Positions 10,061 through 33,613 of a stretch of 33,613 bases of DNA are shown here, one piece after another. A program made the translations under genes and the position numbers. Location: NCBI GenBank assembly GCA_022766785.1, contig JALEOL010000084.1, forward strand, positions 1-33,613. The letters run 5' to 3'. The DNA is from Oscillospiraceae bacterium. Its GTDB lineage: Bacteria; Bacillota; Clostridia; Oscillospirales; Ruminococcaceae. Under the pieces are notes generated by a model. The model searched no databases, was not told the origin of the DNA, and saw only the letters and a program-made list of their open reading frames with translations. Within the stretch, counting starts at the first letter, position 1, and each line of letters opens with the position of its first letter.

Positions 10061-10136
10061 TACTAATAGCCATTTGAACTCAGGAGCTATATTCAGAGAT
10101 CCGGCACCGCTCCGGTTGTCAAGCGGTTATTAGTAT
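10060..10136. repeat. Inverted repeat between sortase genes 1 and 2
   Basis: ATACTAATAGCC (10060-10071) and GGTTATTAGTAT (10125-10136) pair over 12 bases with one G-T type mismatch and enclose the gap, including a CCGG/CCGG hairpin. The left arm overlaps the last base of the first sortase gene. It is likely an RNA stem affecting relative expression; it lacks a T tract. Confidence 0.6.
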
Positions 10137-10162
10137 GACAGTTTCCGAAAGGACAGATCGAT

Positions 10163-11227: not shown

Positions 11228-11294
11228 TACTGCTCCCGGAACAACCCGGTTTATACCTGGTATAATTGCAACTCTGAAAGGAAGATAATTACCA

Positions 11295-12419: not shown

Positions 12420-12429
12420 CGGAGGCTTC

Positions 12430-13857
12430 ATGAAAATATCACTTGTGAAAACAGGTACGGCTCTGCTGATAGGCAGCTGCTATATGTTCGTCTGCGGAGT
12501 AACGGGAACGGTGGGCGGAGAGGCTATGAGCCAGGATACCGCCGCTGCCACAGCGGAGGCTGACGGAATGATCGACGATATCGGCGAGGCAGGCGGTCAG
12601 GGAACGCTGGACTTCCTGGTTCCGGACGAGACCAGCTCCGGGCTTATCACGGTTGACTTAATGGAAATGGCTCCGCTGTCGCTGTCCAGCAAAATGGTGC
12701 AGAGTACATACAGCGTGCGTGACGATATCACCCGGGAACCGCCCACCGGGGAGACTGATGAGATCCTCGGCGGCACCGGGGAAGTTACCGATGAGATAGT
12801 CATCACTCTGCCCGAGGAGGAAGAGGATACCCCGGCTGAAACGACAACGGCGGCAACTACCACCACAGCTGCCACAACTACGCAGCCGGTTCAGACCACC
12901 GCGGCCACCACTACGACTGCGGCGACAACCCAGACTACCACAACTGCTGCGACAACTCCGGCAGGTATCCCGGTCGATACGGATACCACCACGGCTTCCG
13001 ACGACCAGCCGGACATTACCGAGCCGGAGGACGAACCCGGCAGCGATGTGACGGGAGAGGTGCTTTATGTGCGCTCCAACGGCGGAGTTGTTTCCGGAAG
13101 TGCGCTGGAGATAGTCGCCAAAATAACCCAGCACGAGGTCGGGTATACGTTCGCACCCGAGGCGATAAAGGCGCAGGCAGTCGCGGCGTATACATACGTT
13201 AAGTTCTGCAATGACTACGGCACATATCCCAGCGTGGGACTTTCAAGCAGCGTTTCCGACTCGGTGGAGGTGCTGGTGGAGTCCGTTATCGGCAAGGGGA
13301 TATATTACAACGGCGCGCTGATACAGGCGGTTTATTCCGCGTCCTCGGCAGGGTATACCGCTTCCAGCATTAACGTGTGGGGAACTGACTATCCCTATCT
13401 CGAAAGCCGCTTCTGCGACCTGGACGCAAAATACGATCCGAATTACGGAAAGACCACGCAGTTCTCCTCGGCGGAGATAAAGCAGAACGTGCTGGATAAG
13501 ACCGGTATCGAGCTTTCCGGCGACCCGTCGTCCTGGCTTTCGATAGAGAACCGTATTGACGGCAACTATGTCGGGCAGATGAGTATCGGCGGTTATCACA
13601 GCTACACCGACAGCAGCGGCAACTCCGTGAAGATCACCGGCAGGGTGTTCCGCGAGAAGATAATGAGCTTCGGGCTGCGGTCAAGCTCGTTCGATATATC
13701 TTACGACCCGGGAACGGATATGTTCACGTTCACGACATATGGATACGGTCATGGCGTGGGAATGAGCCAGAACGGCGCGAACGCCCTTGCCACCTACCTC
13801 GGATATGACTATAAGCAGATACTGACCTACTATTACAGCGGTACAGAGGTGTACTGA
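12430..13857 (+). CDS. Secreted SpoIID/LytB-domain protein with Thr-rich linker
   Basis: A 475-residue exported protein. It has an N-terminal signal or anchor helix (about 5-25), an acidic region, a Thr/Ala-rich linker (about 136-190) and a SpoIID domain (about 210-475). SpoIID proteins are lytic transglycosylases or amidase enhancers that cut peptidoglycan glycan strands; the expected catalytic Glu is Glu236 (ITQHEVG), followed by APEAIKAQAVAAYTY and the C-terminal GYGHGVGMSQNGA (438-450). The start at 12430 follows GGAGG; the open frame before it runs inside sortase 3. The Thr-rich linker argues for a cell-surface role with the sortases rather than the engulfment SpoIID itself. Confidence 0.88.
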   Translation: MKISLVKTGTALLIGSCYMFVCGVTGTVGGEAMSQDTAAATAEADGMIDDIGEAGGQGTLDFLVPDETSSGLITVDLMEMAPLSLSSKMVQSTYSVRDDITREPPTGETDEILGGTGEVTDEIVITLPEEEEDTPAETTTAATTTTAATTTQPVQTTAATTTTAATTQTTTTAATTPAGIPVDTDTTTASDDQPDITEPEDEPGSDVTGEVLYVRSNGGVVSGSALEIVAKITQHEVGYTFAPEAIKAQAVAAYTYVKFCNDYGTYPSVGLSSSVSDSVEVLVESVIGKGIYYNGALIQAVYSASSAGYTASSINVWGTDYPYLESRFCDLDAKYDPNYGKTTQFSSAEIKQNVLDKTGIELSGDPSSWLSIENRIDGNYVGQMSIGGYHSYTDSSGNSVKITGRVFREKIMSFGLRSSSFDISYDPGTDMFTFTTYGYGHGVGMSQNGANALATYLGYDYKQILTYYYSGTEVY

Positions 13858-17210: not shown

Positions 17211-17242
17211 AAGAACGCTCCTTTCGTGCTTCATGTGATTAT

Positions 17243-19238: not shown

Positions 19239-19832
19239 ATGTCCGTTAATCTTCAGAAAGGTCAGAAGGTTGACCTTACAAAAGGCAACACAGGGTTAAA
19301 GACGATACTTGTCGGACTCGGCTGGGACGAAGCGCCGAAGAAATTCTCCCTATTCTCAAAGCAGGAGGATATCGACTGTGACGCGTCCGCGCTGCTCATA
19401 AGCGCACAGACCGGAAAGCTGAACGGACCGGTAGACGTTGTGTATTTCGGCAATCTCACACATCAGTCCGGTGCAGTTCACCACATGGGCGACAACCTCA
19501 CCGGCGCAGGCGACGGTGACGACGAGCAGATACTTGTTGAGCTGCCGAAGCTGGGAAGCGCTTATTCAAAGATAGTATTCACCGTTAATATTTATCAGGC
19601 TATGCAGCGCAAGCAGCATTTCGGCATGATAAAGAACGCTTTCATCAGACTTGTGGACGCAGACAAGGGCACAGAGCTGTGCAGATACAATCTTTCGGAG
19701 AACTACGACGGCAAGACTGCCATGATCTTCGGAGAAATCTATCTGTATAACGGCGAGTGGAAGTTTAACGCTATTGGCGAGCCTACGAATGACAACAGCA
19801 TTTCCGAGCTTGCCGCAAGATATCAGCGCTGA
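19239..19832 (+). CDS. TerD-family calcium-binding stress protein
   Basis: A 197-residue TerD-family protein (tellurium resistance/general stress). The N-terminal SVNLQKGQKVDLTKG, a CDASALL strand and the acidic calcium loop MGDNLTGAGDGDDE (83-96) are all present, as is the C-terminal EIYLYNGEWKFNAIG. TerD domains bind Ca2+ through the acidic loop and are thought to act in cytoplasmic membrane-stress complexes. An insertion (PKKFSLFSKQEDID, about 33-46) separates it from the second TerD gene in the window. GGAGG precedes the ATG. It leads a short unit with a small membrane protein and lies 1 kb ahead of the main Ter-like cluster. Confidence 0.93.
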   Translation: MSVNLQKGQKVDLTKGNTGLKTILVGLGWDEAPKKFSLFSKQEDIDCDASALLISAQTGKLNGPVDVVYFGNLTHQSGAVHHMGDNLTGAGDGDDEQILVELPKLGSAYSKIVFTVNIYQAMQRKQHFGMIKNAFIRLVDADKGTELCRYNLSENYDGKTAMIFGEIYLYNGEWKFNAIGEPTNDNSISELAARYQR

Positions 19833-20590: not shown

Positions 20591-20609
20591 GGGAGGGCTT
20601 TGCTCTCCC
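20591..20609 (+). terminator. Terminator of ybaK
   Basis: GGGAG/CTCCC arms plus an inner GC/GC pair, followed by ATTTTATGTATTTTTT. Confidence 0.75.
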
Positions 20610-20661: not shown

Positions 20662-20690
20662 TTGACATAATGGAGATTTTAGGTTATAAT
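20662..20690 (+). promoter_or_regulatory. Perfect consensus sigma-A promoter of the Ter-like operon
   Basis: TTGACA (20662-20667), a 17-base spacer and TATAAT (20685-20690): all twelve consensus positions match. It drives a leader of about 115 bases and then the vWA gene. Confidence 0.88.
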
Positions 20691-20814
20691 TATCTGTGAG
20701 CAGGCTGTAGTTTTGTAAAATATTACTTGCTCCCAACAGATCTCAGTCATGGTTTGCGCAGTGAGCTGCGAAAAAAATCTGTGCCGCAGTCTGCGGTGAA
20801 AATGGAGGTCAATC
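20691..20814 (+). promoter_or_regulatory. Structured leader of the Ter-like operon
   Basis: Pairs seen: GAGCA with TGCTC near the 5' end, ACAGAT (20736-20741) with ATCTGT (20777-20782) enclosing CGCAG/CTGCG (20757-20761, 20766-20770), and CCGCA/TGCGG (20784-20788, 20792-20796). The ribosome site GGAGG follows directly. A consensus promoter combined with a folded leader suggests post-initiation control. No known riboswitch class was recognised. Confidence 0.45.
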
Positions 20815-21456
20815 ATGTCGGATTACATCAGAAGGCTGCCGGTTTACCTGCTGCTCGACTGCTCCGGTTCAATGTCCGGAGAGCCTATTGAAGCGGTAAA
20901 GCAGGGAATAAAGGCTCTGCTCAGCGAGCTTAAAGGGGATCCCCAGGCACTTGAAACGGCTTACCTTTCAGTTATTACTTTTAACAGCACCGCACGGCAG
21001 GTGTCTCCGCTGACGGAGCTTATGCTTTTTAAAGAGCCGGAGCTTACCGCAGGCGGTGCAACGGCTCTCGGCGGCGCGCTGACAGTCCTCGCCGACTGCA
21101 TAAAGAACGAGGTGCGCACCTCCACCGCCACGCAGAAGGGCGACTGGAAGCCGCTGGTGTTCCTGCTGACAGACGGCGCACCTACCGACAATCTCGACGA
21201 CGGTATCGACGCGCTGAAGCAGGTCGCTACCAGCAACATCATCGCCTGCGCCGCGGGTGCTAACGCAAATACGAACACCCTCAGAAAGATCACCAACAAC
21301 GTCCTGATGATGAACAACCTCACCGCAGGCGATCTGGCGGCGTTCTTCGCATGGGTATCCGGTTCGATCAAGGCTTCCTCCAAGAGCATTGACGCAAAGC
21401 CCGGAGAGGCTATCCAGCTTCCGCCTCCTCCCCAGGGATTTGCGATCGTTCCCTGA
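20815..21456 (+). CDS. TerY-type von Willebrand factor A protein
   Basis: A 213-residue cytoplasmic vWA protein. The metal-binding MIDAS site is intact: DCSGSMS (Asp15, Ser17, Ser19), Thr83 in GGATALGG and Asp120 in LLTDGAPTD. The end is Pro-rich (PPPPQGF). In known Ter-type systems such a protein forms a triad with a PP2C phosphatase and a kinase, and exactly these follow here. The ribosome site GGAGG precedes the ATG and the next gene starts 11 bases after the stop. MIDAS proteins usually assemble complexes through a bound divalent metal; the partner here is probably the phosphatase, kinase or TerD proteins. Confidence 0.92.
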   Translation: MSDYIRRLPVYLLLDCSGSMSGEPIEAVKQGIKALLSELKGDPQALETAYLSVITFNSTARQVSPLTELMLFKEPELTAGGATALGGALTVLADCIKNEVRTSTATQKGDWKPLVFLLTDGAPTDNLDDGIDALKQVATSNIIACAAGANANTNTLRKITNNVLMMNNLTAGDLAAFFAWVSGSIKASSKSIDAKPGEAIQLPPPPQGFAIVP

Positions 21457-21467
21457 TCGGGGGAATT

Positions 21468-22967
21468 ATGGACAGAGATGATAACAGACTTCCGGGTACC
21501 GCGCCGGAGGAGATGAATCTCATATCCGAGCCTGTCCGCGCGGATAGCACCAGGGGCAGCCGGACTGCCGATGATATGGCGATCCCGCCGGTACAGGAAG
21601 ATGCCGCACAGCCCGAGAATACCGGTGTGAAATGTTCCGTTGCAGCTCAGCAGGATAATTCCCGTGAGGGAGTTCAGGATAATGCGCTGCCGGAGAATAT
21701 TCCGGTACAGGACAGCTCTCGATCAGATAAGAACGGGGAAAGCGAACAAGTCACCACCGGTGTTGATGAGCAGGAGCAGCGCATGTCCGACAGCGACGTA
21801 ATGCGGCACACTGCTTCATTGTGGCGCTACAGGACGGTCGCGGAGAACGGGACGGAGCTTCACACCGAATACCACGGAAAGTACACCAGGACGGGTATCG
21901 GCGAGATGATCGGCGCCCGGGTCCGCGGAAAAAAGCACAAGCATGAGGGCACCAACTGCGACGACTGGTTCGAGACCGCTGTCGCGGACGGCTGCTTTAT
22001 CGCTGTGGTGGCGGACGGCGCCGGTTCAAAGCAGCTGTCGAGAATTGGAGCGAGGGTCAGCTGCGAGAGCGCGGTGGAGTACCTAAAGACTGCGATCCCG
22101 GAGATGTTCGCACAGGACTCGGGGATTAGGTCAAAGCTAAGCGGCGATATGTCCGGGGAGGATTTCCTGGGGGCGTGCGGTCAGTTCGCGGCAATGATCA
22201 GAAAATCAGCGGAAACGGCTTTCGACAGCGTGATAAAGAAGCTGAAAAGCCTGTATTCCGACCAGAACTATATATCCACCCTGGGGCGAAATCCCACGCT
22301 TGCCGATATGGGAAGCACGTTCCTGGCGGCGGTGGCTGTTCCCGTGGAGGTAAACGGCGAGCGGCAGCGTTTCGTGGTCACTTTGCAGATAGGTGACGGC
22401 TGTATCTGCGCCATTGACAGCAAGGCGGATCACAACGGCTGCTTCCGTCTGCTGGGAGAAGCCGACAGCGGTGCATACTCCGGAGAAACGGAGTTTCTTT
22501 CAGAAAGAACTGTGTCGGAGGGGGTAATTGCCCGAAAGATCCGCATAAGCCGCGGCAGATCAGACATATTAATGCTGATGAGCGACGGCGTTGCCGACGA
22601 CTATTTCCCGGCGCAGCCCATGATGAAGCGGCTGTACCTCGACCTGTGGCTTAACGGCATTCTTCCGATGAGGGACGGGTGCCAGGGGCGGAAGGAGCCT
22701 GAACCGCTGAAATTCCCGGCGGTCACTCCCGAGCAGCAGCCGGTGGCGATACAGTACGCAAAGCAGCTGCTGAGCGAAAACTCCGACGACGCAGTGAACG
22801 AGCTGTGGGATTCCCGGGATACGCTTGCGCCCTACTCCCTTGCGGCGTGGGGAAGCTCCCTCGGGGACAGACCGGATAACCGGCTCCAGAGCTGGCTGGA
22901 TAATTACAACGAGCGCGGCAGCTTCGATGACCGCACGCTTGTTGTGATGAATTTTGACGTCGAGTGA
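21468..22967 (+). CDS. PP2C-type protein phosphatase with disordered N-terminus
   Basis: A 499-residue protein. Residues 1 to about 115 are acidic and low-complexity (Glu, Asp, Gln, Asn, Pro, Ser). The PP2C domain follows, with metal ligands in GTNCDDWFE (about 161-169), VVADGAGS (Asp183-Gly184), LMLMSDGVADD and the final DDRTLVVM (Asp487/488). It should remove phosphate from Ser/Thr targets of the kinase encoded next. A long insert near residues 380-470 before the last motif sets it apart from plain PP2C. The ribosome site is GGGGG, 11 bases after the vWA gene, so the two are tightly co-expressed. Confidence 0.9.
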   Translation: MDRDDNRLPGTAPEEMNLISEPVRADSTRGSRTADDMAIPPVQEDAAQPENTGVKCSVAAQQDNSREGVQDNALPENIPVQDSSRSDKNGESEQVTTGVDEQEQRMSDSDVMRHTASLWRYRTVAENGTELHTEYHGKYTRTGIGEMIGARVRGKKHKHEGTNCDDWFETAVADGCFIAVVADGAGSKQLSRIGARVSCESAVEYLKTAIPEMFAQDSGIRSKLSGDMSGEDFLGACGQFAAMIRKSAETAFDSVIKKLKSLYSDQNYISTLGRNPTLADMGSTFLAAVAVPVEVNGERQRFVVTLQIGDGCICAIDSKADHNGCFRLLGEADSGAYSGETEFLSERTVSEGVIARKIRISRGRSDILMLMSDGVADDYFPAQPMMKRLYLDLWLNGILPMRDGCQGRKEPEPLKFPAVTPEQQPVAIQYAKQLLSENSDDAVNELWDSRDTLAPYSLAAWGSSLGDRPDNRLQSWLDNYNERGSFDDRTLVVMNFDVE

Positions 22968-23221
22968 TATTTCCCGTCAATATAACGGACGGTAATGCGG
23001 CGAGACCACCGACAGCTTTCTGGGGAAAACCACATTGCCGGATCAGCAGGCAGTGATCGGATATATTATGCGCGACTTAAAGTGATATTATAAAAAGATA
23101 TTACGGAGCGTATATATTGAGAGCGTGGTTTTCTGCTGAATTATCACCCGGAGCAAGCACGAAAAAATACTCGCGGAATAATTTCGATAAATATAACAGA
23201 AGGTAAAAGGCTGGTGAGAGT
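22968..23221 (+). other. 254-base gap between phosphatase and kinase genes
   Basis: No convincing gene, terminator or consensus promoter was seen. The right half is AT-rich (TATTATAAAAAGATATTAC around 23080-23100) and could hold a weak internal promoter. Confidence 0.35.
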
Positions 23222-24700
23222 GTGAGAAGCGGCGAGATAGTGACTGCGGCGCTGGAGGGCGGCGGAACGATAGAGTTCGTATATGACGCGAACGCTCCGC
23301 GCGGCGGTATGAAGCACACCTTTTTCACACCCGACAGGCAGTACGCCGTACAGTTTTTCAACGACCCTTCGGACGGAATGAACCCGAATATACAGGATCG
23401 TATCCGCACGATAGTCGGGGTGTACAATCCCACCTTGTCGGAGGAAAACGGCGGCGCCATGGGCAACACGGAAAAGACGGCGGAGTATTTCCGCAGCCGT
23501 TTCTGCTGGCCGGTGGCGATAGTCAGCAGCCCTGAGTTCGGGATAGTGTGCCCGGCTTACCCGAAAAGGTTTTTCTTCGGGGAGGGCGCTTCCACCGCCG
23601 GACTTAACCTCAAGGGAAAGGACAAAAAGAGCAACTGGTTCACCGGCAGAATGAGGAAATACATAAGCCCCGGCGAGCTTGGAGATTTCCGGACGATGCT
23701 TGGAGCGGCGATCTGCCTTTCAAGAAGCATTCGAAGAATGCACCAGGCAGGGCTTGCGCATTCCGACCTTTCCTGCAACAACGTGCTTATCGACCCACAG
23801 ACGGGAAGCACGGTGGTTATCGATATAGATTCGCTGGTCGTACCGGGGAAATATCCCCCGGAGGTATGTGGCACAAAGGGGTATATCGCCCCGGAGGTGA
23901 TCGCGACCATGGAGTACGACCCCGGTGATCCCAGGCGGTGCCTGCCCTGTGTTTCGACAGACCTGCACGCGCTGCCGGTGCTTATTTACGAATACCTGTT
24001 CCTGCGGCATCCGCTTGTAGGACCTAAGGTATACAGCACAGCCTCGGCGGAGGAGGACGACTTCCTCGGCATGGGACCGATGGCTACATTCATTGAAAAT
24101 CCCACGGACAAAAGCAACAGACCCCCTGACCTGAAAGTGACGATACAGTCGCTGTCAAAGGGTCTGGAGAAGCTCTTCCTGCGCGCTTTCGTTGACGGAC
24201 TTCACGATCCGTCGGAGCGCCCCACCGCAATGGAGTGGGAGAGCGAGCTGCTGAAAGCGTGGGACAGACTCAGACGGTGTGAAAATCCACGCTGCGAGAA
24301 AAAGTGGTTCATTCTCAGAGATGAGAACGATCCGGTATGCCCCTTCTGTAAAACACGAGTTACGGACAGGATCATCAGGCTCACCTTAAAGAGCGGGGTG
24401 CGGGGCAAAAAGGGCATCTACAGGGACTGCGGCGAGATCATCGCGTATGATCAGATGCCGCTGTACGACTGGCATGTCTATTCCAATGTCCATAACGATG
24501 AAAAGGCGAGCACCGAAATGCGTGCATATATCTGCAAGCACAGAGGAATGTGGCTGCTCGTCAACAACGGCGTCGAGGGAATGACTTCCCCGACTGGAAG
24601 GCTTGTTCCAAAGGGACAGGCGGTCGAGCTACGCAACGGAGCTGTATTCCGCATGACCGACCGTGAGAACGGTCTTTTGTGCGAGGTATCGGTGTACTGA
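23222..24700 (+). CDS. Atypical protein kinase with zinc ribbon (TerY-linked)
   Basis: A 492-residue protein starting at GTG; AAAAGG lies about 13 bases upstream. The kinase fold (about 10-350) shows a catalytic loop HSDLSCNN (His180, Asp182, Asn187), a DID in place of DFG (201-203), and GTKGYIAPEV as activation segment. The usual ATP-anchoring Lys of the VAIK motif reads Gln44 (YAVQFF). A zinc ribbon follows (Cys353, 358, 373, 376), then a beta-rich C-terminal region with an FHA-like look (GQAVELRNGAVFRM). It completes the vWA/PP2C/kinase triad of Ter systems. Activity is likely but the missing Lys leaves open a pseudokinase. Confidence 0.88.
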   Translation: MRSGEIVTAALEGGGTIEFVYDANAPRGGMKHTFFTPDRQYAVQFFNDPSDGMNPNIQDRIRTIVGVYNPTLSEENGGAMGNTEKTAEYFRSRFCWPVAIVSSPEFGIVCPAYPKRFFFGEGASTAGLNLKGKDKKSNWFTGRMRKYISPGELGDFRTMLGAAICLSRSIRRMHQAGLAHSDLSCNNVLIDPQTGSTVVIDIDSLVVPGKYPPEVCGTKGYIAPEVIATMEYDPGDPRRCLPCVSTDLHALPVLIYEYLFLRHPLVGPKVYSTASAEEDDFLGMGPMATFIENPTDKSNRPPDLKVTIQSLSKGLEKLFLRAFVDGLHDPSERPTAMEWESELLKAWDRLRRCENPRCEKKWFILRDENDPVCPFCKTRVTDRIIRLTLKSGVRGKKGIYRDCGEIIAYDQMPLYDWHVYSNVHNDEKASTEMRAYICKHRGMWLLVNNGVEGMTSPTGRLVPKGQAVELRNGAVFRMTDRENGLLCEVSVY

Positions 24701-24721
24701 CGTCTCGAGAGAGGAAAGAAT

Positions 24722-27454
24722 ATGAAGCAATTTGGTTTAACAGACAGTCAGGCTGAGGAGTCCCGTAAGAAATACGGCGACAACTCCATGACAGAGCAGG
24801 CTTCCGAGAGCTTCTGGGATAAGCTCAAGGGCAACCTCGGCGACCCGATGATAAAGATACTCATCGTGGCGCTGCTTATCAACATCGTTCTGGCGATACT
24901 TGGTATCACCGGGGTCATCAGCGAGGGCGCACCGGAGTGGTATGAGCCGCTTGGTATTTTCATAGCTATCGCACTGGCAACGCTGGTTTCCACATTCTCT
25001 GAGTACAGAAACGAGAACGCATTCCAGAAATTGCAGGAAGAAGCCTCCCGTATCATGTGCAAGGTCTACCGCAACGGAGTTATCACAGAGGTAGCTATCA
25101 ACGATATCGTTGTAGGCGACGCAATTCTTTTGCAGGCAGGCGACAAGATACCTGCCGACGGTATCCTGATAGACGGCGACCTCAAGGTAGACCAGTCGGT
25201 GCTCAACGGCGAGAGCCGCGAGGCTAAGAAGCTGGCTGTTTCCGAGGGCTGGACTGACACTGACGAGAGCCTTAACTTCGACAACGAGCATAAGGTGTTC
25301 AGAGGCAGCGTAGTCTGCTCCGGCAACGCGGTAATGGAAGTCACAGTTGTAGGCGACAAGTCGGTTTACGGCAAGATAGCAAGCGAGTTACAGACGGACG
25401 ACGACCGCGATACTCCCCTTAAAGTAAAGCTTGGCAAGCTCGCCGGCGGTATCTCAAAGTTCGGCTACATCGGCGGTATCGCTATCGCAGTCGCAATGCT
25501 GGTAAAGACGCTGTTCCTTGCTCCCGGCGGAGTTGAGGCAGTTCTGTTCGCAGGCGGAGAATTTCAGTGGGTAGCGCTTGTCAACGCTGTTATCCAGTCG
25601 GTAATGCTGGCGGTCATCATCATCGTTATGGCAGTTCCCGAGGGTCTGCCGCTTATGATAGCGATAGTTTCGGCGCAGAACATGGGCAAAATGCTCAAGG
25701 ATAACGTCCTTGTAAGAAAGGTCGCAGGTATCGAGACCGCAGGTTCCCTCAATATCCTGTTCTCCGATAAGACCGGTACTATCACCAAGGGCAAGCTGGA
25801 GGCTGTCACCTTTATTGACGGCGGTCTGAACGAGTCAAAGACCTACGCAGAGGTAGGCGGCAAGCTGAAAGACATTCTGTCCCTGTCAATTCACAAGAAC
25901 ACCCTGTCGGTGATCTCCGGCGAGGGCAAGGATATGAGAGTTATCGGCGGCAACGCGACTGAGCGCGCTATCTTAGGCTTTGCGGCAGGGGAAAGCTGTT
26001 CCGCGAACGTCGCCGCCGTGGGCAATATCCCGTTCAATTCCACGAACAAGTACTCCGCAACACAGGTCAAGGGCGACTACGACCTGACGCTGATAAAGGG
26101 CGCACCGGAGAAGATACTCCAGAGATGCTCGCACTACTGGGGCGTTGACGGTGAGAAGAAGCCGTTTGATATGGCTGAACTCAACAAGCGTATTGACGAG
26201 CTTGCAAACCGCGCTATCAGAGTGCTTGCTATCGCAACAAGCGAGGACGCTCTCGGCGAGGAGTCGCTGCCCGAGGGCAACAACTGGACTCTTGTAGGCG
26301 TTGTGGGGATCCGTGACGAGGTTCGCCCTGAGTCTGTCACCGCTATCGCTGAAGTTAAGGGCGCAGGCGTACAGGTAGTCATGATCACCGGCGACCGCAA
26401 GGAGACCGCAGTTGCTATCGCAAAGGACGCAGGTTTGCTGGAGAAGGACACCGATGTGGTGCTCACCTCCGACGAGCTTGCAAAGCTGTCTGACGAGGAG
26501 ATAAAGCAGAAGCTGCCGAACATTCGCGTTATCGCGAGAGCGCTTCCCTCCGACAAGAGCCGTCTGGTTCGTCTGGCACAGGAGCTTGACCTTGTTGCAG
26601 GCATGACCGGCGACGGCGTGAACGACTCCCCGGCGCTGAAAAAGGCGGACGTTGGCTTCGCAATGGGCGGCGGTACGGAAGTCGCAAAGGAAGCGAGCGA
26701 CATCGTTATCCTGGACGACAACTTCAACTCTATCGACCGGGCTATCCTGTACGGACGTACTATCTTCAATTCTATCAGAAAGTTTATCGTATTCCAGCTC
26801 ACTATCAACGTATCTGCGGTGCTTATCAGCTTTATCTGTCCGCTTATCGGTCTGGCAAATCCGCTGTCGGTTATCCAGATCCTGTGGGTAAACCTCGTAA
26901 TGGACACCCTCGCGGCGCTTGCATTCGGCGGCGAGCCGGCGCTCAGCCGTTATATGCGTGAAAAGCCGAAGCGCAGAACTGAGCATATCATCAGCAAGAA
27001 CATGATGTCGCAGATAGTCACCGGCGCAGCGTGGACGTTTATCCTGTCGCTTGCAATGCTTGTTCTTGGCACATTTGACGCCGACCCGAATAACCCCGGA
27101 ATAAGCTTCCTCGAAAGCTGGGGCATAGTCCGTGACAGCAATATCAAGGGCGAGGCTCACGCTTATCTGCACACCGCTTACTTTGCGTTCTTCATCTTCA
27201 TTGCGGTATTCAACGCGTTCAATGCAAGAACCGACCGCCTGAACCTGTTCGACAACCTGAAAAAGAACAAGGGCTTCCTGACGGTATTCGGCATTATCGC
27301 AGTGGTTCAGATACTGATGACCTATCTGGGCGGCGCGATACTCAGCGGATATGGTCTGACTATCGAGTGGCTGCTGGTACTCGGCATGGCTATCTCAATC
27401 ATACCGATAGACCTTATCAGAAAGGCTATCGCGAACGCTTCTTCAAAGAACTGA
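24722..27454 (+). CDS. P-type Ca2+-transporting ATPase
   Basis: A 910-residue P2-type pump that exports Ca2+ across the membrane using ATP. It has an N-terminal cation-ATPase domain, an actuator motif LNGESREAKK (161-170), the M4 ion-binding motif PEGLP (306-310), phosphorylated Asp349 in DKTGT, the nucleotide domain with KGAPEKILQ, MITGDRKETA and GDGVNDSPALKKAD, and a C-terminal six-helix bundle. The layout is of the PMCA/SERCA-like bacterial type. It begins 21 bases after the kinase gene with GAGAGGAAAG before the ATG. In a Ter-type operon the usual integral membrane protein is TerC; here this pump takes that position, which links the cluster to calcium. Confidence 0.95.
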   Translation: MKQFGLTDSQAEESRKKYGDNSMTEQASESFWDKLKGNLGDPMIKILIVALLINIVLAILGITGVISEGAPEWYEPLGIFIAIALATLVSTFSEYRNENAFQKLQEEASRIMCKVYRNGVITEVAINDIVVGDAILLQAGDKIPADGILIDGDLKVDQSVLNGESREAKKLAVSEGWTDTDESLNFDNEHKVFRGSVVCSGNAVMEVTVVGDKSVYGKIASELQTDDDRDTPLKVKLGKLAGGISKFGYIGGIAIAVAMLVKTLFLAPGGVEAVLFAGGEFQWVALVNAVIQSVMLAVIIIVMAVPEGLPLMIAIVSAQNMGKMLKDNVLVRKVAGIETAGSLNILFSDKTGTITKGKLEAVTFIDGGLNESKTYAEVGGKLKDILSLSIHKNTLSVISGEGKDMRVIGGNATERAILGFAAGESCSANVAAVGNIPFNSTNKYSATQVKGDYDLTLIKGAPEKILQRCSHYWGVDGEKKPFDMAELNKRIDELANRAIRVLAIATSEDALGEESLPEGNNWTLVGVVGIRDEVRPESVTAIAEVKGAGVQVVMITGDRKETAVAIAKDAGLLEKDTDVVLTSDELAKLSDEEIKQKLPNIRVIARALPSDKSRLVRLAQELDLVAGMTGDGVNDSPALKKADVGFAMGGGTEVAKEASDIVILDDNFNSIDRAILYGRTIFNSIRKFIVFQLTINVSAVLISFICPLIGLANPLSVIQILWVNLVMDTLAALAFGGEPALSRYMREKPKRRTEHIISKNMMSQIVTGAAWTFILSLAMLVLGTFDADPNNPGISFLESWGIVRDSNIKGEAHAYLHTAYFAFFIFIAVFNAFNARTDRLNLFDNLKKNKGFLTVFGIIAVVQILMTYLGGAILSGYGLTIEWLLVLGMAISIIPIDLIRKAIANASSKN

Positions 27455-27470
27455 TAAACTTACGGCAAAC

Positions 27471-27493
27471 GGGCGCTGAGTTACACAGCGCCC
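27471..27493 (+). repeat. Intercistronic hairpin between Ca2+ ATPase and TerD genes
   Basis: GGGCGCTG and CAGCGCCC are perfect 8-base arms with a 7-base loop. There is no T tract, so it more likely stabilises or attenuates the mRNA than ends it. Confidence 0.65.
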
Positions 27494-27523
27494 CAGCCGG
27501 CGACATAAAAGGAGGAAAACAAA

Positions 27524-28108
27524 ATGGCAGTAAATCTTTCAAAGGGTCAGAGAGTAAGTCTTGATAAGTCAGTTACACTGGCTAGGATCGGTCTGGGCTG
27601 GGATACCAACCGCTATGACGGCGGTCAGGATTTCGACCTTGACGCGAGCGTGTTCCTTCTGGGTGCGAACGGAAAGGTGCTCCGTGACGAGGACTTCGTA
27701 TTCTACAACAACCTCAACGGCAGAAACGGCGCGGTAGTTCACACCGGCGATAACCGTACCGGCGAGGGCGACGGCGACGATGAGGCTATAATCATCGACT
27801 TTACAAAGATACCGCCTGAGATCGAGAAGATCGCAGTGACTGTTACAATTTTCGACGCACAGCAGCGCAACCAGAACTTCGGTCAGGTATCCAACGCTTA
27901 TGTCAGAGTAGTGAAGATCGACAATCCCGACGACGTAAACGGCGAGGAGGTAATTCACTTCGACCTGATGGAGGAGTTCTCCATTGAGACTGCGCTGGTA
28001 GTATGCGAGGTTTACCGCTACAACGGCGACTGGAAGTTCAACGCAGTCGCAGCAGGTTATCAGGGCGGACTTGAGGCGCTCTGCCGCGCTTACGGCGTGA
28101 ACATCTGA
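27524..28108 (+). CDS. TerD-family calcium-binding protein 2
   Basis: A 194-residue classical TerD/TerE-type protein. Hallmarks are AVNLSKGQRVSLDK at the start, GLGWDTNRYDGGQDFDLDAS (23-42), the acidic Ca2+ loop HTGDNRTGEGDGDDE (73-87), FDAQQRNQNFGQV and EVYRYNGDWKFNAVAAGYQ. It is closer to the standard form than the first TerD gene, as it lacks the insertion near residue 35. AAAGGAGG precedes the ATG. It follows the calcium pump and precedes a TerD-fusion gene. TerD proteins are abundant under stress in many Firmicutes and may buffer or sense Ca2+ at the membrane. Confidence 0.95.
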   Translation: MAVNLSKGQRVSLDKSVTLARIGLGWDTNRYDGGQDFDLDASVFLLGANGKVLRDEDFVFYNNLNGRNGAVVHTGDNRTGEGDGDDEAIIIDFTKIPPEIEKIAVTVTIFDAQQRNQNFGQVSNAYVRVVKIDNPDDVNGEEVIHFDLMEEFSIETALVVCEVYRYNGDWKFNAVAAGYQGGLEALCRAYGVNI

Positions 28109-28141
28109 TAAAACAGCAGATCTACCGGAGGGGGCAGCGGT

Positions 28142-29473
28142 TTGGCAACAATATATGATATTATCTCGGCAACGCCGGACAATGGTACCGCCGCGCTCCC
28201 ACCCGGAGAGTTTGAAGGTCCTGTTGTGATCGGCAGACCGATGAAGCTCCAGGGGAGAAATACCACGGTGTGGGCGCGTCACGGCGCTGTTATCGGTATT
28301 GAATCCCCCGGCGTCACGCTTGAGGGTCTCCGGGTGGAGATAACCGAGGGCGAGACTTCCGAGACGGCGATAAAGGCGAATTACCCCACAAATGTTTCCA
28401 ACGTCGAGGTGCTGGGTACCGTCAGCGGCTTCGGCGGCGAGGACGGCATGGCGGAGATACCGCGCACCCTGGCTTTGGGAGAGATGTCGCCGCAGGAAGA
28501 AAACAGCTTCCTGATGACGGTGGATATCCCGGCGGAGGCTGAGATAGTCTGTAGCCAGGGCGGAGTGACGTTCGTTCCGGATAAGCTGCCGGCCGGCAGG
28601 AGCGAGGTTAAGATAATCGTAGCCGCACCGGGCACTCCGGGGCTTGTGTATTCGGAGATACTGCTGAATTCCGCGTTCCGCAGGAGGATATACCTCAGCG
28701 GCAGGTTTTCGGCAGGCGCGCCGGCGGTGAAAGACCGTGTGATATTCACGGCGCAGAATGTCGTTCGCAAGCCGGCACCCAGCGTTCCGGAGCAGCCTAA
28801 GTCTATCTGTATCCCGTCCGTCCCGGCTTTTGTCCCGTCAATGGGAACAGGGACTCCGGGCAGCGGTGTTTCGGTGCAGGGCATGACCCAGGAGCGGAGA
28901 AAGACCACAGCAGAGCTTGCGGCGGCGCTCCGTCATGCGGCGGAGGAAAAAGCTCCGCTGGTGATGAAGCGCGGACAGCGTATCCCGGCGGCGCAGCTGG
29001 GCGAGAGCTTTTCTGTGTATCTCACGGGAGTGAAGCTGGGCGAGCTTGACGTCGACCCGTATGTGTTCATGCTTGACGGCAACGAAAAAAGCGTGGGCGA
29101 CGGCGGACTGGTGTTCTTCGGGAACACTTCCTCGCCGGACGGGGCGGTGAAATACGACAGCGAGGACGGCCACATCAGTGTAGAACCCGGCAGGATATCC
29201 CCCGGTGTAAAGCGGGTGGTGATCGCGTATTCGGTCTATTCCGGAACCAGTCGCAGAAATTTCTCGCTGGTGAAGGATCCGATACTGTCGCTGTACTCCG
29301 GCGGCAAAGAATGCGTCAGCTTCCCCATTGACGGGCTGACGAACGAAATTACGATAGTTGCTATGGAGATGTACCTGTATAAGGGCGAGTGGCGTATCTC
29401 ATCGGTCGGCTCGGGCTACCGTGACGGACTGGTGAAGCTGTGCAACCGCTATGGCATCGAGGTCAGCAGCTGA
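28142..29473 (+). CDS. Beta-helix/TerD-like fusion protein
   Basis: A 443-residue protein starting at TTG behind GGAGGGGG; no in-frame ATG offers a better start. Residues 1-95 look like a right-handed beta-helix (GPVVIGRPMKLQGRNTTVW, GVTLEGLRVEI), 96-205 form another beta-rich domain, 210-250 is a Pro/Ser linker and 272-443 is a TerD-like domain. The TerD part aligns with its neighbour (DVDPYVFML, GLVFFGN, EMYLYKGEWRISSVGSGY), but the acidic calcium loop has shrunk to DSEDGHIS, so calcium binding is probably lost. No signal peptide is present, so it is cytoplasmic. It may be a scaffold for the Ter-type complex. Confidence 0.85.
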   Translation: MATIYDIISATPDNGTAALPPGEFEGPVVIGRPMKLQGRNTTVWARHGAVIGIESPGVTLEGLRVEITEGETSETAIKANYPTNVSNVEVLGTVSGFGGEDGMAEIPRTLALGEMSPQEENSFLMTVDIPAEAEIVCSQGGVTFVPDKLPAGRSEVKIIVAAPGTPGLVYSEILLNSAFRRRIYLSGRFSAGAPAVKDRVIFTAQNVVRKPAPSVPEQPKSICIPSVPAFVPSMGTGTPGSGVSVQGMTQERRKTTAELAAALRHAAEEKAPLVMKRGQRIPAAQLGESFSVYLTGVKLGELDVDPYVFMLDGNEKSVGDGGLVFFGNTSSPDGAVKYDSEDGHISVEPGRISPGVKRVVIAYSVYSGTSRRNFSLVKDPILSLYSGGKECVSFPIDGLTNEITIVAMEMYLYKGEWRISSVGSGYRDGLVKLCNRYGIEVSS

Positions 29474-29503
29474 TACCAAACATGAGAGGAAAGGTCTGGC
29501 AGA

Positions 29504-31684
29504 ATGGCTCCTAATGGATTTACACGATATATCGGATATGACAACGCCGATGTTTTCAAGAATATGCTGATAGAGAGCTACGCTGCGGCGAAGAAAAACG
29601 GGCTTTTCTTCGAGGGCAGGATCCCGATGGCTTCCACCACCGAGATAAGCACGGCGGCAGGGTATGCGGCGGCGGATCTGAGCGACGAGAGATCGGTGAA
29701 GTCCGGGCTTCAGAGCTGGCTTTCCTCGCAGCGGCTGCAGTACAGCGCCGAGGTGATAACACCGCTGCTTACCGAGGCGATAAAGACCTGCGGCGCGAAC
29801 GGAAAGAATACATACTTCGTCCTGCTTTGCTGGCTGATGAAGTATCTTTCGATAAAGCCTGCGTCGCTGCTGTACATCGGCTCGGGAACGCTCAGGGAGC
29901 TGTTCTTCATGCTTATCCTGAGCAGCTGCGGAGTTAAGGTCACTTATGTGTCCTACGGCAACGACCCGGATTTTGAGAAGTTCAGCCACAAGGATAAGGT
30001 GCAGACTATTGACGGAGCAATGAGCGGCGTTGTGCAGATAGACTTCGCCCATATCGACCTGTCAAAGGCGGCTCAGCTGTGTGAGATGCGCGCGTCCGCC
30101 CAGCAGGTTGAGGGGATAGTCCAGCGGCTGAATACCACGGCTGCCGGTATCTTTGAGGATCTCATGGTGGATCGCCGCACCCGTGTGGTGAAAAACGGCG
30201 GCGTTTACACCGAGGACGGAGTTATCCCGGTATACTGCGCGTCGCTGATAGGCTATGACGACGAGGCGGTATACAACAATATGCTGCTGAACTTCAAGGA
30301 GGGCTTCGCCAAAAGCAAGAAGCAGCTCATCTTCATCGAAAAGCCGCTGGATAACCCCAACGCCGATGAGATAAAGCAGCTTGGCAGCGTAAACCGCAGC
30401 AGTGTTACAACGATGATCGACGAGCTGGCGCTCAAAATAAAACTGAACGGCGACCCTGTACGCACAGCACTGGCGCAGACGGAGCTGAGAAAGCTGCTTA
30501 ATTCGCTGTACACCGGCAATCCTACGGTGGTGTTCAACTATGGCAGCAAGTTCATTTCCTGGCTGTATCGCTGCACCCAGGCGAGAAAATACGCGGTGCA
30601 GTACGAAGACATTCCGCTGATACTGTATTACGGCGATATCTCCCAGTCGGAGCTGTACTTTTTGCATTACATGTCCCGGGTGGGATTTGACATCATCTAT
30701 ATCACGCCTAACAAGCTGCTGCTGGATATCACGGTGGACAAAAACCTTGACAACCGAATGCAGATATTCCAGCTGCCCCAGACCAAGGACAGCGGAAGCT
30801 ACCCCACAAAGGCGATCAAGATGAAGGTGAACACCGTCGCATATTCCGCCGAAAGGGAGCTTGACACGATGCTCTACAGCGGCGACGCCGGTATCTTCCG
30901 GGATTTCCAGTTTCTCAACAGCCAGACGGTCACGCTGAGAACTACCCTTGAGGAGATCGGTATACTGTGGAAGCAGGAGGCGAGGTTCCGTCAGGGCTTT
31001 GCAACATCGGGAAATCTTGTCACAGTGCCTAACGTTTTTGCGAAGATCAGCGGAGTTAAAGACGGCAACGTCAATGCATACTGGGAGGAGATCCGCGACA
31101 GGCTCACCCCGGAGACTATCCTGCGTGTAAAGGGCGAGAAGCCGGAGCAGCATGGAACGCCCGATCTGTCGGCGTACCGCAGCTTCTACCGAAACGGACA
31201 GATCGACACCGAACGTCTCAAGACTTCTTCTCTGAATAAATACAGCTATCTGCCGGACAGAATACAGGATTTGCTCCTGTTCAAGCTGCAGGAGGCGGTT
31301 GACAGCAAGTTCCTGAAGCTTTCCGGCGACGACCTTATGTGCGCCGTTATGCACTTCGGAATGAACCTAGACAAGGAGTTCATGAAGCTGCTGCAGAGCT
31401 TTGATTTCACGAAGCAGCTGCCGAAGCTTATCTGGATAGACGCGGTGGAGCAGACCTTTACGCTGGAGGAGTGCATTCAGCTGGTGCTGTGCAATCTGAT
31501 AGGCTTTGATATCCTGATATACACCCCGACGGGGTATAAGAACCTTGAAACGTTCGTGTCATCGGACGCATTTGAGGAGCATACACTCAACGATTTTCAG
31601 TACAACCTGGAGGTGCCGAAGTTCAAGATACCCTCCGAAACCAGAAACAGCGGTTTGTTCGGCAAGCTGTTCAGGAAAGGATAA
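29504..31684 (+). CDS. yceG: YceG-family Ter-cluster protein with internal duplication
   Basis: A 726-residue cytoplasmic protein of the YceG family, found next to TerD and TelA genes in the Bacillus yceCDEFGH operon. Two related halves are visible: YIGYDNADVFKNML (about 8-22) recurs as LIGYDDEAVYNNML (about 248-261), each followed by a FFEG/FIEKP segment; and LLYIGSGTLRELFF recurs as LILYYGDISQSELYF. It is longer than the Bacillus protein (about 540 residues, from memory). Published domain analysis links YceG to a proposed biosynthetic module in Ter systems; its reaction is not established. AGGAAAGG precedes the ATG. TelA starts five bases after the stop. Confidence 0.82.
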   Translation: MAPNGFTRYIGYDNADVFKNMLIESYAAAKKNGLFFEGRIPMASTTEISTAAGYAAADLSDERSVKSGLQSWLSSQRLQYSAEVITPLLTEAIKTCGANGKNTYFVLLCWLMKYLSIKPASLLYIGSGTLRELFFMLILSSCGVKVTYVSYGNDPDFEKFSHKDKVQTIDGAMSGVVQIDFAHIDLSKAAQLCEMRASAQQVEGIVQRLNTTAAGIFEDLMVDRRTRVVKNGGVYTEDGVIPVYCASLIGYDDEAVYNNMLLNFKEGFAKSKKQLIFIEKPLDNPNADEIKQLGSVNRSSVTTMIDELALKIKLNGDPVRTALAQTELRKLLNSLYTGNPTVVFNYGSKFISWLYRCTQARKYAVQYEDIPLILYYGDISQSELYFLHYMSRVGFDIIYITPNKLLLDITVDKNLDNRMQIFQLPQTKDSGSYPTKAIKMKVNTVAYSAERELDTMLYSGDAGIFRDFQFLNSQTVTLRTTLEEIGILWKQEARFRQGFATSGNLVTVPNVFAKISGVKDGNVNAYWEEIRDRLTPETILRVKGEKPEQHGTPDLSAYRSFYRNGQIDTERLKTSSLNKYSYLPDRIQDLLLFKLQEAVDSKFLKLSGDDLMCAVMHFGMNLDKEFMKLLQSFDFTKQLPKLIWIDAVEQTFTLEECIQLVLCNLIGFDILIYTPTGYKNLETFVSSDAFEEHTLNDFQYNLEVPKFKIPSETRNSGLFGKLFRKG

Positions 31685-31689
31685 ACATT

Positions 31690-32859
31690 ATGGGATTACA
31701 GTTTACACCCGGCTCACAGTTACAGGCACAGCCTGAAGTACAGGCGGCTCCGGCTGCCACTCTCGCAAAGACCCCGGAAGAAGTTGCGCTCGATGTCCAG
31801 ATCGAGGAAGCCAAGAACTACAACATCGTGGTCGAGACTGACAAGATCAAGCAGGAGCTTGCCACCAGCGCAGATATCGACAGACTGGTAAGCACCATCA
31901 ATCTCAACGACTCCAACACGATCGTGAAGTTCGGTGCGGACGCTGCCGAGGAGATCTCCAAGGCTTCCGACCAGGTGCTCAATTCCATGACGATCGACCA
32001 GGTGAACGACACCGGCGTAATGCTCAAGGAGCTTTCGAAGATCATGGAGCGGTTTGATATAAACGAGATCAAGGACGACAAGCCCGGACTTTTCGGCAGT
32101 CTCAAGAAGAAGCTGGAGAAGATCATCGGCAAGTACGAGACCATGGGCAACGAGGTGGACAAGATCTATGTTCAGCTCAAGCAGTATGAGAGGGAGATCG
32201 GAGAAGCAAACACAAAGCTCGATAACATGTATGAGGCAAATCTCGGCTATTATCAGGAACTGGTGAAGTATATCATGGCAGGCGAGCAGGCTGTAAAGGA
32301 GCTTGACAGCTACATTGAGGACTACACAAAGAAGTCCGAGGCAAACCCCGACGACGGCACTATCCGCATGGATCTCTCCAACCTGACCCAGATGCGCGAG
32401 ATACTCGACCAGCGTGTAATGGATCTGAAGGTAGCAGAAAACGTAGCTATCCAGACGGTGCCCATGCTCAAGACCATGGAGTATTCCAACCTCAATCTGG
32501 TGAGAAAGATAAACTCCGCATTCATCATCACCATGCCGGTATTCAAGCAGGCACTGGCACAGGCTATCATGCTGAAGCGCCAGAAGATCATCGCAGACTC
32601 CATGCAGGCTCTGGACGAAAAGACCAACGAGATGCTGAAGAAGAACGCACAGAACACCGTTGCACAGAGCAAGGCGATCGCGGCAATGGCTTCCGGTTCT
32701 TCTATCAAGGTAGAGACTCTCCAGGAGACCTGGACGACTATCGTCAACGGTATCGACGAGGTTCAGGCTATCCAGACCCAGGCAAGAGAGAAGCGCAAGC
32801 AGGACGCTGTTGTGCTTGAAAATATCAAGGCTGACTACAAGAAGCGCATGAAGGCGTAA
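31690..32859 (+). CDS. telA: TelA/YceH toxic-anion-resistance protein
   Basis: A 389-residue TelA-family protein, predicted to be mainly helical with coiled-coil stretches (about 130-215 and 300-389). Diagnostic segments are the FGSLKKKLEKIIGKYETM region, VDKIYVQLKQYEREIG and KTMEYSNLNLVRKINSAFIITMP-like blocks in the second half. TelA proteins are linked to resistance to tellurite and to cell-envelope stress; the mechanism is unclear. The N-terminal 30 residues are Gln/Pro/Ala-rich. It is the last gene of the operon, five bases after yceG, and ends in front of a terminator that overlaps the recombinase gene on the other strand. Confidence 0.94.
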   Translation: MGLQFTPGSQLQAQPEVQAAPAATLAKTPEEVALDVQIEEAKNYNIVVETDKIKQELATSADIDRLVSTINLNDSNTIVKFGADAAEEISKASDQVLNSMTIDQVNDTGVMLKELSKIMERFDINEIKDDKPGLFGSLKKKLEKIIGKYETMGNEVDKIYVQLKQYEREIGEANTKLDNMYEANLGYYQELVKYIMAGEQAVKELDSYIEDYTKKSEANPDDGTIRMDLSNLTQMREILDQRVMDLKVAENVAIQTVPMLKTMEYSNLNLVRKINSAFIITMPVFKQALAQAIMLKRQKIIADSMQALDEKTNEMLKKNAQNTVAQSKAIAAMASGSSIKVETLQETWTTIVNGIDEVQAIQTQAREKRKQDAVVLENIKADYKKRMKA

Positions 32860-32916: not shown

Positions 32917-32948
32917 GAAAGGCTATGTGACCGCTCACTCAGCCTTTC
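32917..32948. terminator. Bidirectional terminator between telA and the recombinase
   Basis: GAAAGGCT and AGCCTTTC (8 bp) with an inner GTGA-CCGC-TCAC hairpin, followed by TTCTTTTC. The recombinase stop codon lies within the hairpin. Confidence 0.82.
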
Positions 32949-33613
32949 TTCTTTTCGGCTGGTAGTCAAGCCTGTTTGCAGTAGTGGTCGAAACCGCCAC
33001 ATTAAACCGCCAGTAGATGTCTATCCGCTGTGTGCGATGTCCGCCGGACTTGTCGGGAGCGTGAACAACGATTTTCTCCACGAACTCGTGCATTATCGTT
33101 GGCGTTAGCTCGATGACCTCGGAATACTTGTGTACTATCTCCACGAATTTTGCCGTATCCGCAGTTTTCTGTTCCCTTGCCGCGATAAATTCCGTCAATT
33201 CGGGGACTTTTGCTTTAAGTTGTTTCTGCTCGTCCTCATAGGTTTTGGAAATTGCGGTGTAACGCTCGTCCGACACTTTACCGGATACATTGTCCTCATA
33301 GAGCTTAATGAACAGCCTGTCGATTTCCGCAATTCTTCGTTCAGCCTGCGAAAGCTGTTTCCTTGCGCTTTTGAGTTCTGCGGATTGTTGCTGTGTGGAG
33401 TTGTCGAGAGCCATCTGGACGAACTCTTGCTCATGTTCTTTGACTATACTCATAATCCCGTTCAGCTCCGCGAGAACTATTTTTCGCAGCACCGCCGTCC
33501 TCACGAAATGCGCCGAGCAGACCTCTTGGTTGTTCGCGTAAGAGCTGCATTTGAGGTGTTCCTGCTCCGCCGTGTGCGACTTAGACCGACAAAGATACAT
33601 CAGCCTTCCGCAG
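32935..33613 (-). CDS. Large serine recombinase, C-terminal part
   Basis: The last 225 or so residues of a large serine recombinase; the frame stays open to the right edge, so the catalytic N-terminal domain is outside the window and the ATG at 33600 is internal. Visible are part of a recombinase zinc ribbon (CGRLMYLCRSK, then CSSYANNQEVCSAHFVR), a long coiled coil (LKSARKQLSQAERRIAEIDR) and a DUF4368-type end (HEFVEKIVVHAPD, RIDIYWRFN). Such enzymes move Tn-type and ICE elements. It points towards telA and shares a terminator with it, so a mobile element ends, or has ended, right beside the Ter-like cluster. Confidence 0.88.
   Translation of the reverse strand, partial: CGRLMYLCRSKSHTAEQEHLKCSSYANNQEVCSAHFVRTAVLRKIVLAELNGIMSIVKEHEQEFVQMALDNSTQQQSAELKSARKQLSQAERRIAEIDRLFIKLYEDNVSGKVSDERYTAISKTYEDEQKQLKAKVPELTEFIAAREQKTADTAKFVEIVHKYSEVIELTPTIMHEFVEKIVVHAPDKSGGHRTQRIDIYWRFNVAVSTTTANRLDYQPKRRKAE

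Follow-up and report, generated by a model that had tools for sequence, protein, structure and literature searches.

The window analysed here, 33,613 nucleotides of contig JALEOL010000084.1 from an Oscillospiraceae bacterium, carries between positions 20815 and 32859 eight open reading frames (ORFs) in the same direction, in the order vWA, PP2C, kinase, P-type ATPase, TerD, beta-helix/TerD, YceG and TelA. An earlier sequence-only reading had placed these families at these positions, and Pfam profiles match all eight. The intergenic gaps measure 5–69 base pairs (bp), with the exception of 254 bp between the PP2C and kinase genes, and the genes appear to form one co-directional operon that starts behind a consensus promoter at 20662–20690 and ends at 32859, the stop of TelA. 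The slot behind the kinase is held by a predicted Ca2+ pump throughout most of the genus, and by such a pump or by a degenerate, predicted inactive pseudo-pump in many relatives outside it. The elements of the locus are listed below (aa, amino acids).

20662..20690, + strand: promoter TTGACA-17-TATAAT with an A-rich stretch upstream, a 12/12 match to the sigma-70 type consensus
20815..21456, + strand: vWA protein (TerY type), 213 aa; PF00092, E 4.2e-16
21468..22967, + strand: PP2C phosphatase, 499 aa, with a variable N-terminal extension; PF13672 (PP2C_2), 2.7e-31
23222..24700, + strand: protein kinase with a predicted C-terminal zinc ribbon, 492 aa, GTG start; PF00069 (Pkinase), 4e-10
24722..27454, + strand: predicted PMCA-type (IIB) Ca2+ P-type ATPase, 910 aa; E1-E2_ATPase 7.1e-37, Cation_ATPase_C 7.5e-37, TIGR01517
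27524..28108, + strand: TerD (TerD1), probable Ca2+-binding type, 194 aa; PF02342, 6.5e-76
28142..29473, + strand: beta-helix/beta-sandwich and TerD protein (TerD2), 443 aa, TTG start; PF02342, 5.7e-24 at residues 300–437
29504..31684, + strand: YceG domain protein, 726 aa; PF14266 (YceG_bac), 4.8e-63
31690..32859, + strand: TelA, 389 aa; PF05816, 7.7e-98

Judged by sequence, the ATPase belongs to the PMCA type (IIB) of Ca2+ pumps, in agreement with its earlier assignment to the Ca2+ type; its motifs are intact and transport is predicted. It passes the NCBIfam PMCA-type equivalog TIGR01517 (595 bits, cut-off 507), which is its best match among the type II models, falls below the cut-offs of the PMR1 and SERCA NCBIfam models, and has the plant Ca2+ pump ACA8 (8qmp) as its top solved-structure match. 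DKTGT, PEGL in M4, N696 in M5 and N724 and D728 in M6 are invariant in ten genus rows, and Ala699 (M5) occupies the position of the SERCA second-site Glu, so that the residues of one Ca2+ site only are present, given the site positions that we take SERCA to use. The window pump thus has the catalytic residues, the single Ca2+ site and the full core in common with the PMCA/ACA-type Ca2+-ATPases (TIGR01517; ACA8, 8qmp), but lacks their long terminal tail. Both its N- and C-terminal tails are short (910 aa in total), and any regulation of so tail-poor a pump would be expected to act in trans.

In the genus sample of 43 genomes, a kinase orthologue (at least 72% identity) is present in 41, full length in 38 and fragmented in three; of the other two genomes, G169 is a draft of 69% completeness and G178 shows a distant kinase only, and in both the pump, with TerD1 next to it, lies on or close to the edge of a contig. 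We fetched 41 loci, drawn from 40 of these genomes; four break off at the kinase, and among the other 37 the pump stands immediately 3′ of the kinase in 34 (35/38 if the window is counted too), while in the remaining three neither the pump nor TerD1 follows. TerD1 is found in 25/29 pump loci with room for it, the other four genomes having several TerD genes elsewhere, and YceG and TelA in all 25 loci with sufficient room. The gene order recurs across the genus and is thus more than a chance arrangement; the pump is a conserved operon member, and its absence from the cluster in most relatives, which the sequence-only reading had named as the observation that would count against it, is not what we find. 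The idea of the pump as a local passenger was rejected on the same count and because it also lies beside the kinase in other genera.

The three pump-less loci (L233, L234 and L235, from G152, G154 and G155) have neither the operon pump nor TerD1 and their genomes carry instead an unlinked IIA-type Ca2+ pump, whose best model is the PMR1 type at 624–628 bits, under the cut-off of 798; a search at E 1e-80 met no such pump in the 40 remaining genomes of the genus. Since the three kinases form one clade, this was probably one event.

The association of the pump with TerD also extends beyond gene order. It was tabulated for 62 genomes, comprising the 43 of the genus and 19 of the family with a Ter-type TelA (G131, G056 and G017, with a TelA of another type, were left out), with stand-alone TerD called above 200 bits and with fragments among the pumps. 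Both genes are present in 51 genomes and neither in eight, and only three are discordant: two with the pump only (G021, G122) and one, 73% complete, with TerD only (G170). The two are thus present or absent together in 59/62 genomes.

The family sample of 148 genomes, with the pump called at E 1e-150 and a strong kinase match defined as more than 700 bits, holds the pump in 20 and a strong kinase match in 14, counts that each include the window genome and one further genome of its genus. Among 18 pump loci fetched from the family outside the genus, the kinase lies directly upstream in five (L127, L128, L129, L130, L134), pump and TerD occur without the triad in five (L131, L132, L133, L136, L141), TerD, TelA and YceG lie several kilobases from the pump in one (L139), and triad, TerD, TelA and YceG are all missing nearby in seven. 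A scan of named genomes with a kinase alignment (A3) gave at least 578 relatives, from which we took the 80 best: by our grouping 29 are genus-like and 51 are others, many from the same organisms as our other sampled genomes. Behind the kinase of these 80 we find a PMCA pump with DKTGT in 48 (25 genus, 23 other), a degenerate short pump in 17 (all non-genus), a truncated or unclear gene in three, no pump in 11 and the contig end in one, such that a pump, pseudo-pump or truncated pump follows the kinase in 68/79 assessable loci, with organisms overlapping those of the genus set. We prefer this adjacency count to a looser one (26/29 genus-like, 25/51 others), which admits more distant pumps and a split gene. 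TerD is found on the same strand in 72/80 kinase loci. Another kinase alignment (A1) matched the window genome alone among 391 class genomes at E 1e-20, and the kinase subfamily is therefore uncommon outside the family. When the pump tree is labelled for adjacency to the kinase, the label changes at least four times on supported (starred) branches, by gain or by loss, so that more than one PMCA lineage occupies the slot. In three loci labelled Lachnospiraceae and Selenomonadaceae (L185, L191, L214), nothing pump-like lies behind the kinase and another PMCA-like pump is found 8–11 kilobases (kb) upstream.

The 17 degenerate genes, which we term pseudo-pumps, occur at the following loci.

Pseudo-pump directly behind the kinase: L180, L181, L183, L187, L189, L190, L192, L193, L194
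Pseudo-pump directly behind the kinase, continued: L200, L204, L205, L206, L209, L218, L219, L220

With lengths of 675–715 aa they can be aligned over the pump core, and the GLT..E..S..KYG signature near the N terminus is mostly preserved; a TerD2-type gene follows 3′. All 17 are without the actuator LNGE, the M4 PEGL, a full DKTGT, TGD, TGDGVND and the M6 Asp, and in all of them M7–M10 are gone, 13 stopping after M5 and four retaining an M6-like stretch; the acceptor Asp is retained in eight, with altered surroundings. Pfam finds a P-type domain above cut-off in L204 (47 bits). L180 is a borderline case, with one P-type domain at 27.8 (cut-off 28.1) and the N-terminal one at 20.6 (cut-off 20.4). 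A structural model of L204 built from the 17-row alignment (predicted local distance difference test, pLDDT, 86.5; predicted template modelling score, pTM, 0.83) recovers P-type ATPases in 50/50 matches listed by Foldseek, the best being SPCA1a with a template modelling (TM) score of 0.80 by query length. The pseudo-pumps are hence predicted to be inactive proteins with a P-type fold and without the catalytic motifs, as judged from motifs at 17 loci, Pfam at two and the modelled fold at L204 only. That these short Ca2+-ATPase matches might be heavy-metal ATPases was ruled out, type II models being nearest in the three tested and the motif alignment of all 17 identifying them as degenerate pumps.

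The reading frames are intact, and the ratio of nonsynonymous to synonymous substitution rates (dN/dS) of 0.09–0.22 in eight pairs, three of them from one trio and rough at a dS of about 1 or more, suggests purifying selection that is somewhat relaxed compared with the kinases (0.02–0.08, six pairs) and the real pumps (0.02–0.08, six pairs, a seventh being saturated). In a tree of 67 kinases, from which most genus kinases were left out, those of the pseudo-pump loci fall within a supported 30-row clade that includes active-pump loci, and the label needs three changes, at least two of them forced. Decay of a working pump is therefore likelier than a separate origin; the pump tree places the pseudo-pumps on one side of one branch, with long branches flagged by the program. 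Three family genomes have a pseudo-pump and no PMCA pump (G002, G124 and G092, the last two corresponding to L181 and L183), and two of these carry an IIA-type pump.

The genes for vWA, PP2C and kinase are adjacent and co-directional, as in the TerY-P triad. In the vWA protein DCSGS, TALG and DGAPTD, presumably of the metal-ion-dependent adhesion site (MIDAS) type, and the C-terminal tail LPPPPQGF are invariant in 40 alignment rows; in the phosphatase NCDD, DGAGS, GDG, DGV-DD and DDR, which we take to be the metal site, are invariant in 25. The kinase, aligned in ten rows from six genera, has invariant HSDLS, H180, D182, N187, D201 and D203 and a predicted zinc ribbon with invariant C353, C358, C373 and C376 in a CxNPxC..CPxC pattern. 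Invariant as well are Lys31, within the glycine loop, and Gln44, which stands where kinases usually have the catalytic Lys, and D-I/V-D replaces DFG; the catalytic roles are those we assume from position, and the glycine-loop Lys with Gln at the usual Lys position presumably resembles the arrangement of WNK kinases. The last 100 kinase residues appear FHA-like, with no Pfam match there, and the 254 bp gap ahead of its gene (22968–23221), in an otherwise compact operon, holds a weak promoter-like site at 23117.

TerD1 matches Klebsiella pneumoniae TerD (2kxt/2kxv) at 1.3e-64 with identical acidic motifs, which are conserved in 28 rows, and is by sequence of the Ca2+-binding type, a property studied for 2kxt. 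TerD2 retains a C-terminal TerD domain, which matches structures 3ibz and 2kxt, but in the alignment its acidic motif is mostly gone. Of its description as a beta-helix/TerD gene, the TerD part is borne out, and the beta-helix part corresponds to a weak NosD-like match (1.5e-6, far under the model cut-off) and to an AlphaFold2 model (pLDDT 89.5, pTM 0.53) whose strand pattern we read as short beta-helix coils, a beta-sandwich and a TerD domain. TelA gave no useful match among solved structures.

Position 20662, given as the start of the system by the sequence-only reading, is the first base of the 12/12 promoter, and a terminator-like hairpin lies 5′ of it at 20591. Among 40 upstream regions (the window and 39 genus loci; two further loci without a vWA gene were left out), a perfect TTGACA-17-TATAAT lies at most 260 bp from the vWA gene in 38 and a match of at least 11/12 in 39, a level reached by 2/200 shuffled controls; in L115 a perfect site is present farther upstream. 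No conserved operator was found around the promoter across these regions, an AT-/A-rich upstream element being the sole conserved flank. The consensus promoter is kept perfect across the genus while the kinase downstream diverges to about 72% identity.

Taken together, our results are consistent with a Ter-type envelope/ion stress module in which a TerY-P phospho-switch has its own Ca2+ exporter, a reading to which we give a probability of about 0.5. Expression from so complete a consensus promoter would be strong and constitutive, and control may therefore be exerted after translation. The vWA protein would keep kinase and phosphatase together, and the switch would target the PMCA-type pump, by phosphorylation or docking, or use it as a membrane anchor. 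Because the slot has taken in more than one PMCA lineage and is kept despite pump decay, the switch seems to require a pump-shaped membrane partner, whether as target or as anchor. The pump of the window is intact, and we therefore put first that the switch tunes Ca2+ export or is tuned by it, with Ca2+ as a likely signal and TerD1 as a cytosolic Ca2+ binder that may report or buffer it; TerD2, YceG and TelA would be downstream, envelope-side factors.

Several observations weigh against this proposal. The activity of the kinase is uncertain, because the usual catalytic Lys and DFG are missing. The kinase is not beside the pump in 13/18 family pump loci, no pump is adjacent in 11/80 kinase loci (four of which, L185, L191, L207 and L214, have a pump elsewhere) and a pseudo-pump adjoins the switch in 17/80; Ca2+ export therefore cannot be the switch's sole business. 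Neither YceG nor TelA lies within 10 kb in any of the 51 non-genus kinase loci, many of which end earlier, and both are therefore separable from the switch. The pump/TerD association (Fisher p 1.2e-7) ignores kinship, the eight genomes with neither gene amounting to about five lineages.

The eight genes may alternatively be a plain co-regulated stress operon, whose products answer the same stress (envelope damage, Ca2+ influx) with no direct phospho-control of the pump. We regard this as a serious contender that nevertheless falls short of an even chance: a single strong promoter lies ahead of all genes, and the parts do separate, YceG–TelA occurring without the triad and pump–TerD without it in the five family loci noted above, but the adjacency of kinase and pump persists where the pump has decayed. 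A somewhat more tentative possibility is that the pump serves the TerY-P switch primarily as its receptor or scaffold in the membrane: the pump, or its degenerate descendant, would sense an ion, a lipid or the state of the membrane and set the kinase accordingly, and transport would be secondary or, in the pseudo-pump clade, lost. The odds of this explanation overlap those of the exporter module, in which it is partly contained. It draws on the 17 intact pseudo-pump genes in the same slot, with their low dN/dS, modelled P-type fold, following TerD2-type gene and kinases nested with those of active-pump loci, and has a precedent in the apicomplexan guanylate cyclases that carry P4-ATPase domains, of which one is described as degenerate (PMC6592433, sections consulted). 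Yet in the genus of the window the pump sequence is intact, and genomes without the pump have another of Ca2+ type, which favours transport, and the pseudo-pumps keep the acceptor Asp in 8/17 cases and evolve faster than real pumps. We consider it possible, though doubtful, that the pump's conformation sets the switch and that the predicted transport-dead pseudo-P-type ATPase of one clade is a bacterial, pump-derived receptor family kept for signalling only.

Replacement of TerC was part of the sequence-only interpretation, and here our results diverge from it. TerC is indeed missing from the draft genome of the window (85.75% complete), but TerC, whose presence marks a canonical ter operon, was found in 0/62 genomes and 0/148 family genomes by a search positive in 9/14 controls; 128 of the 148 are without the pump as well and 20 have it. 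For the proposed mutual exclusion, TerC is above cut-off in 27 of 391 class genomes (33 at E 0.001), the pump in 25 and both in two, against 1.7 to 2.1 expected, where pump scoring took the best two candidates per genome, so that pumps may be missed, and the two 391-genome draws are assumed identical. Since TerC is absent with or without the pump and the overlap is that of chance, absence of TerC is a lineage trait rather than a swap; the conserved Ca2+-type pump accompanying TerD is upheld. A gene of about 226–260 aa between TerD genes in relatives was ruled out as TerC, being AIM24 in the two tested (L184, L201). That the ATPase is a functional stand-in for TerC, exporting Mn2+ or another metal, is accordingly the least probable of the explanations considered: the pump is IIB/PMCA-type and fails the model of the PMR1 type, the known Ca2+/Mn2+ transport type, and the lack of TerC is shared by the family whatever its pump. 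On its side are the absence of TerC here and the role of TerC proteins in metalation of exported enzymes in Bacillus subtilis, as described in the consulted text of PMC10550928. An anti-phage defence module of the TerY-P/PP2C-kinase sort is also unlikely, if slightly less so. TerY-P-like modules function in defence and accompany CoCoNuTs (PMC11090510, consulted sections), and PADLOC gives weak matches for the kinase alone (mad6 5.7e-7, MkoA 4.1e-5, PD-T4-6 4.7e-5), but no system-level match, and the other seven proteins give none at all; the eight include neither a nuclease nor a killer component, and the kinase is in 41/43 genus genomes, unlike patchy defence genes.

The triad and the Ter modules are themselves known, and what we consider a new variant is the pump or pseudo-pump beside the triad. 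To our knowledge, no clear switch between a Ca2+ pump and a regulator has been established in bacterial Ca2+ signalling, and the primary job of the Ter system is still debated; here the gene order, the joint absences and the decay of the pump suggest a pump–regulator switch in this system. The pseudo-pumps offer a natural experiment, in which kinase family and slot are unchanged and transport is predicted to be lost, and suggest that bacteria can convert large P-type pumps into non-transporting proteins. TerY-P triads with a zinc-ribbon kinase have been described (PMC11090510, citing Anantharaman 2012, in the part consulted) and share vWA, PP2C and a Ser/Thr kinase with a C-terminal zinc ribbon with our locus, where these stand beside a PMCA-type pump or pseudo-pump; the glycine-loop Lys of the window kinase family may be a further difference. 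The kinase/PP2C/vWA set is known in other conflict systems as well (PMC7159879, consulted text). The Ter system, given as TerD, TerC, TelA and signal-nucleoside biosynthesis genes in the part of PMC7824862 consulted, shares TerD, TelA and YceG with the window, but the window operon is without biosynthesis genes and its genome without TerC. In L184, the triad–pump–TerD set runs on into genes for AIM24, a C-C bond lyase, PRTase/TRSP and StiP/PELOTA. We take the last three to be the Ter biosynthesis set.

Within the partial literature covered, and without a claim to priority, we met neither a gene link between a P-type Ca2+ pump and TerY-P nor non-transporting bacterial P-type pumps or pseudo-P-type ATPases beside a kinase. 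The apicomplexan cyclases (PMC6592433, sections consulted) likewise wire a P-type module to signalling, with one paralogue degenerate, but are eukaryotic P4-type fusions to a cyclase, whereas here the module is a separate bacterial gene beside a kinase. Huge gut 'Jug' phages carry a Ca2+ P-type ATPase and TerD genes, highly transcribed, in one genome; they share both gene kinds with our locus, and the text of PMC12363816 consulted does not state a side-by-side or kinase-triad placement. A phage origin was set aside, as no pump or kinase relative was found in viral contigs with the queries used, the first being a single sequence that reaches close relatives only. We also dropped a mutated PMCA-type pump known from a milk strain selected with antibiotic, since its authors draw no link to phenotype in the consulted part of PMC7839403.

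Upstream of the operon, the window holds a further gene absent from the earlier reading.

19239..19832, + strand: extra stand-alone TerD; PF02342, 1.6e-70

Such a TerD adjoins the operon also in L087, and this gene possibly belongs to the same system. No RNA element was found in the window at gathering threshold. Mobile-element pieces are possible at the window ends, with a phage terminase large subunit at 349–1581 (− strand) and a DUF4368 protein, a domain that is often the terminal part of serine recombinases, at 32935–33600 (− strand). Three consecutive sortase-like genes, the middle one slightly below the Pfam cut-off, are followed by a weak, below-cut-off SpoIID-like protein at 8870–13857, and the gene at 14436–17234 (− strand), next to AraC and Cro/CI-type regulators, encodes a protein of 932 aa in which a glycosyl hydrolase family 59 domain is recognised.

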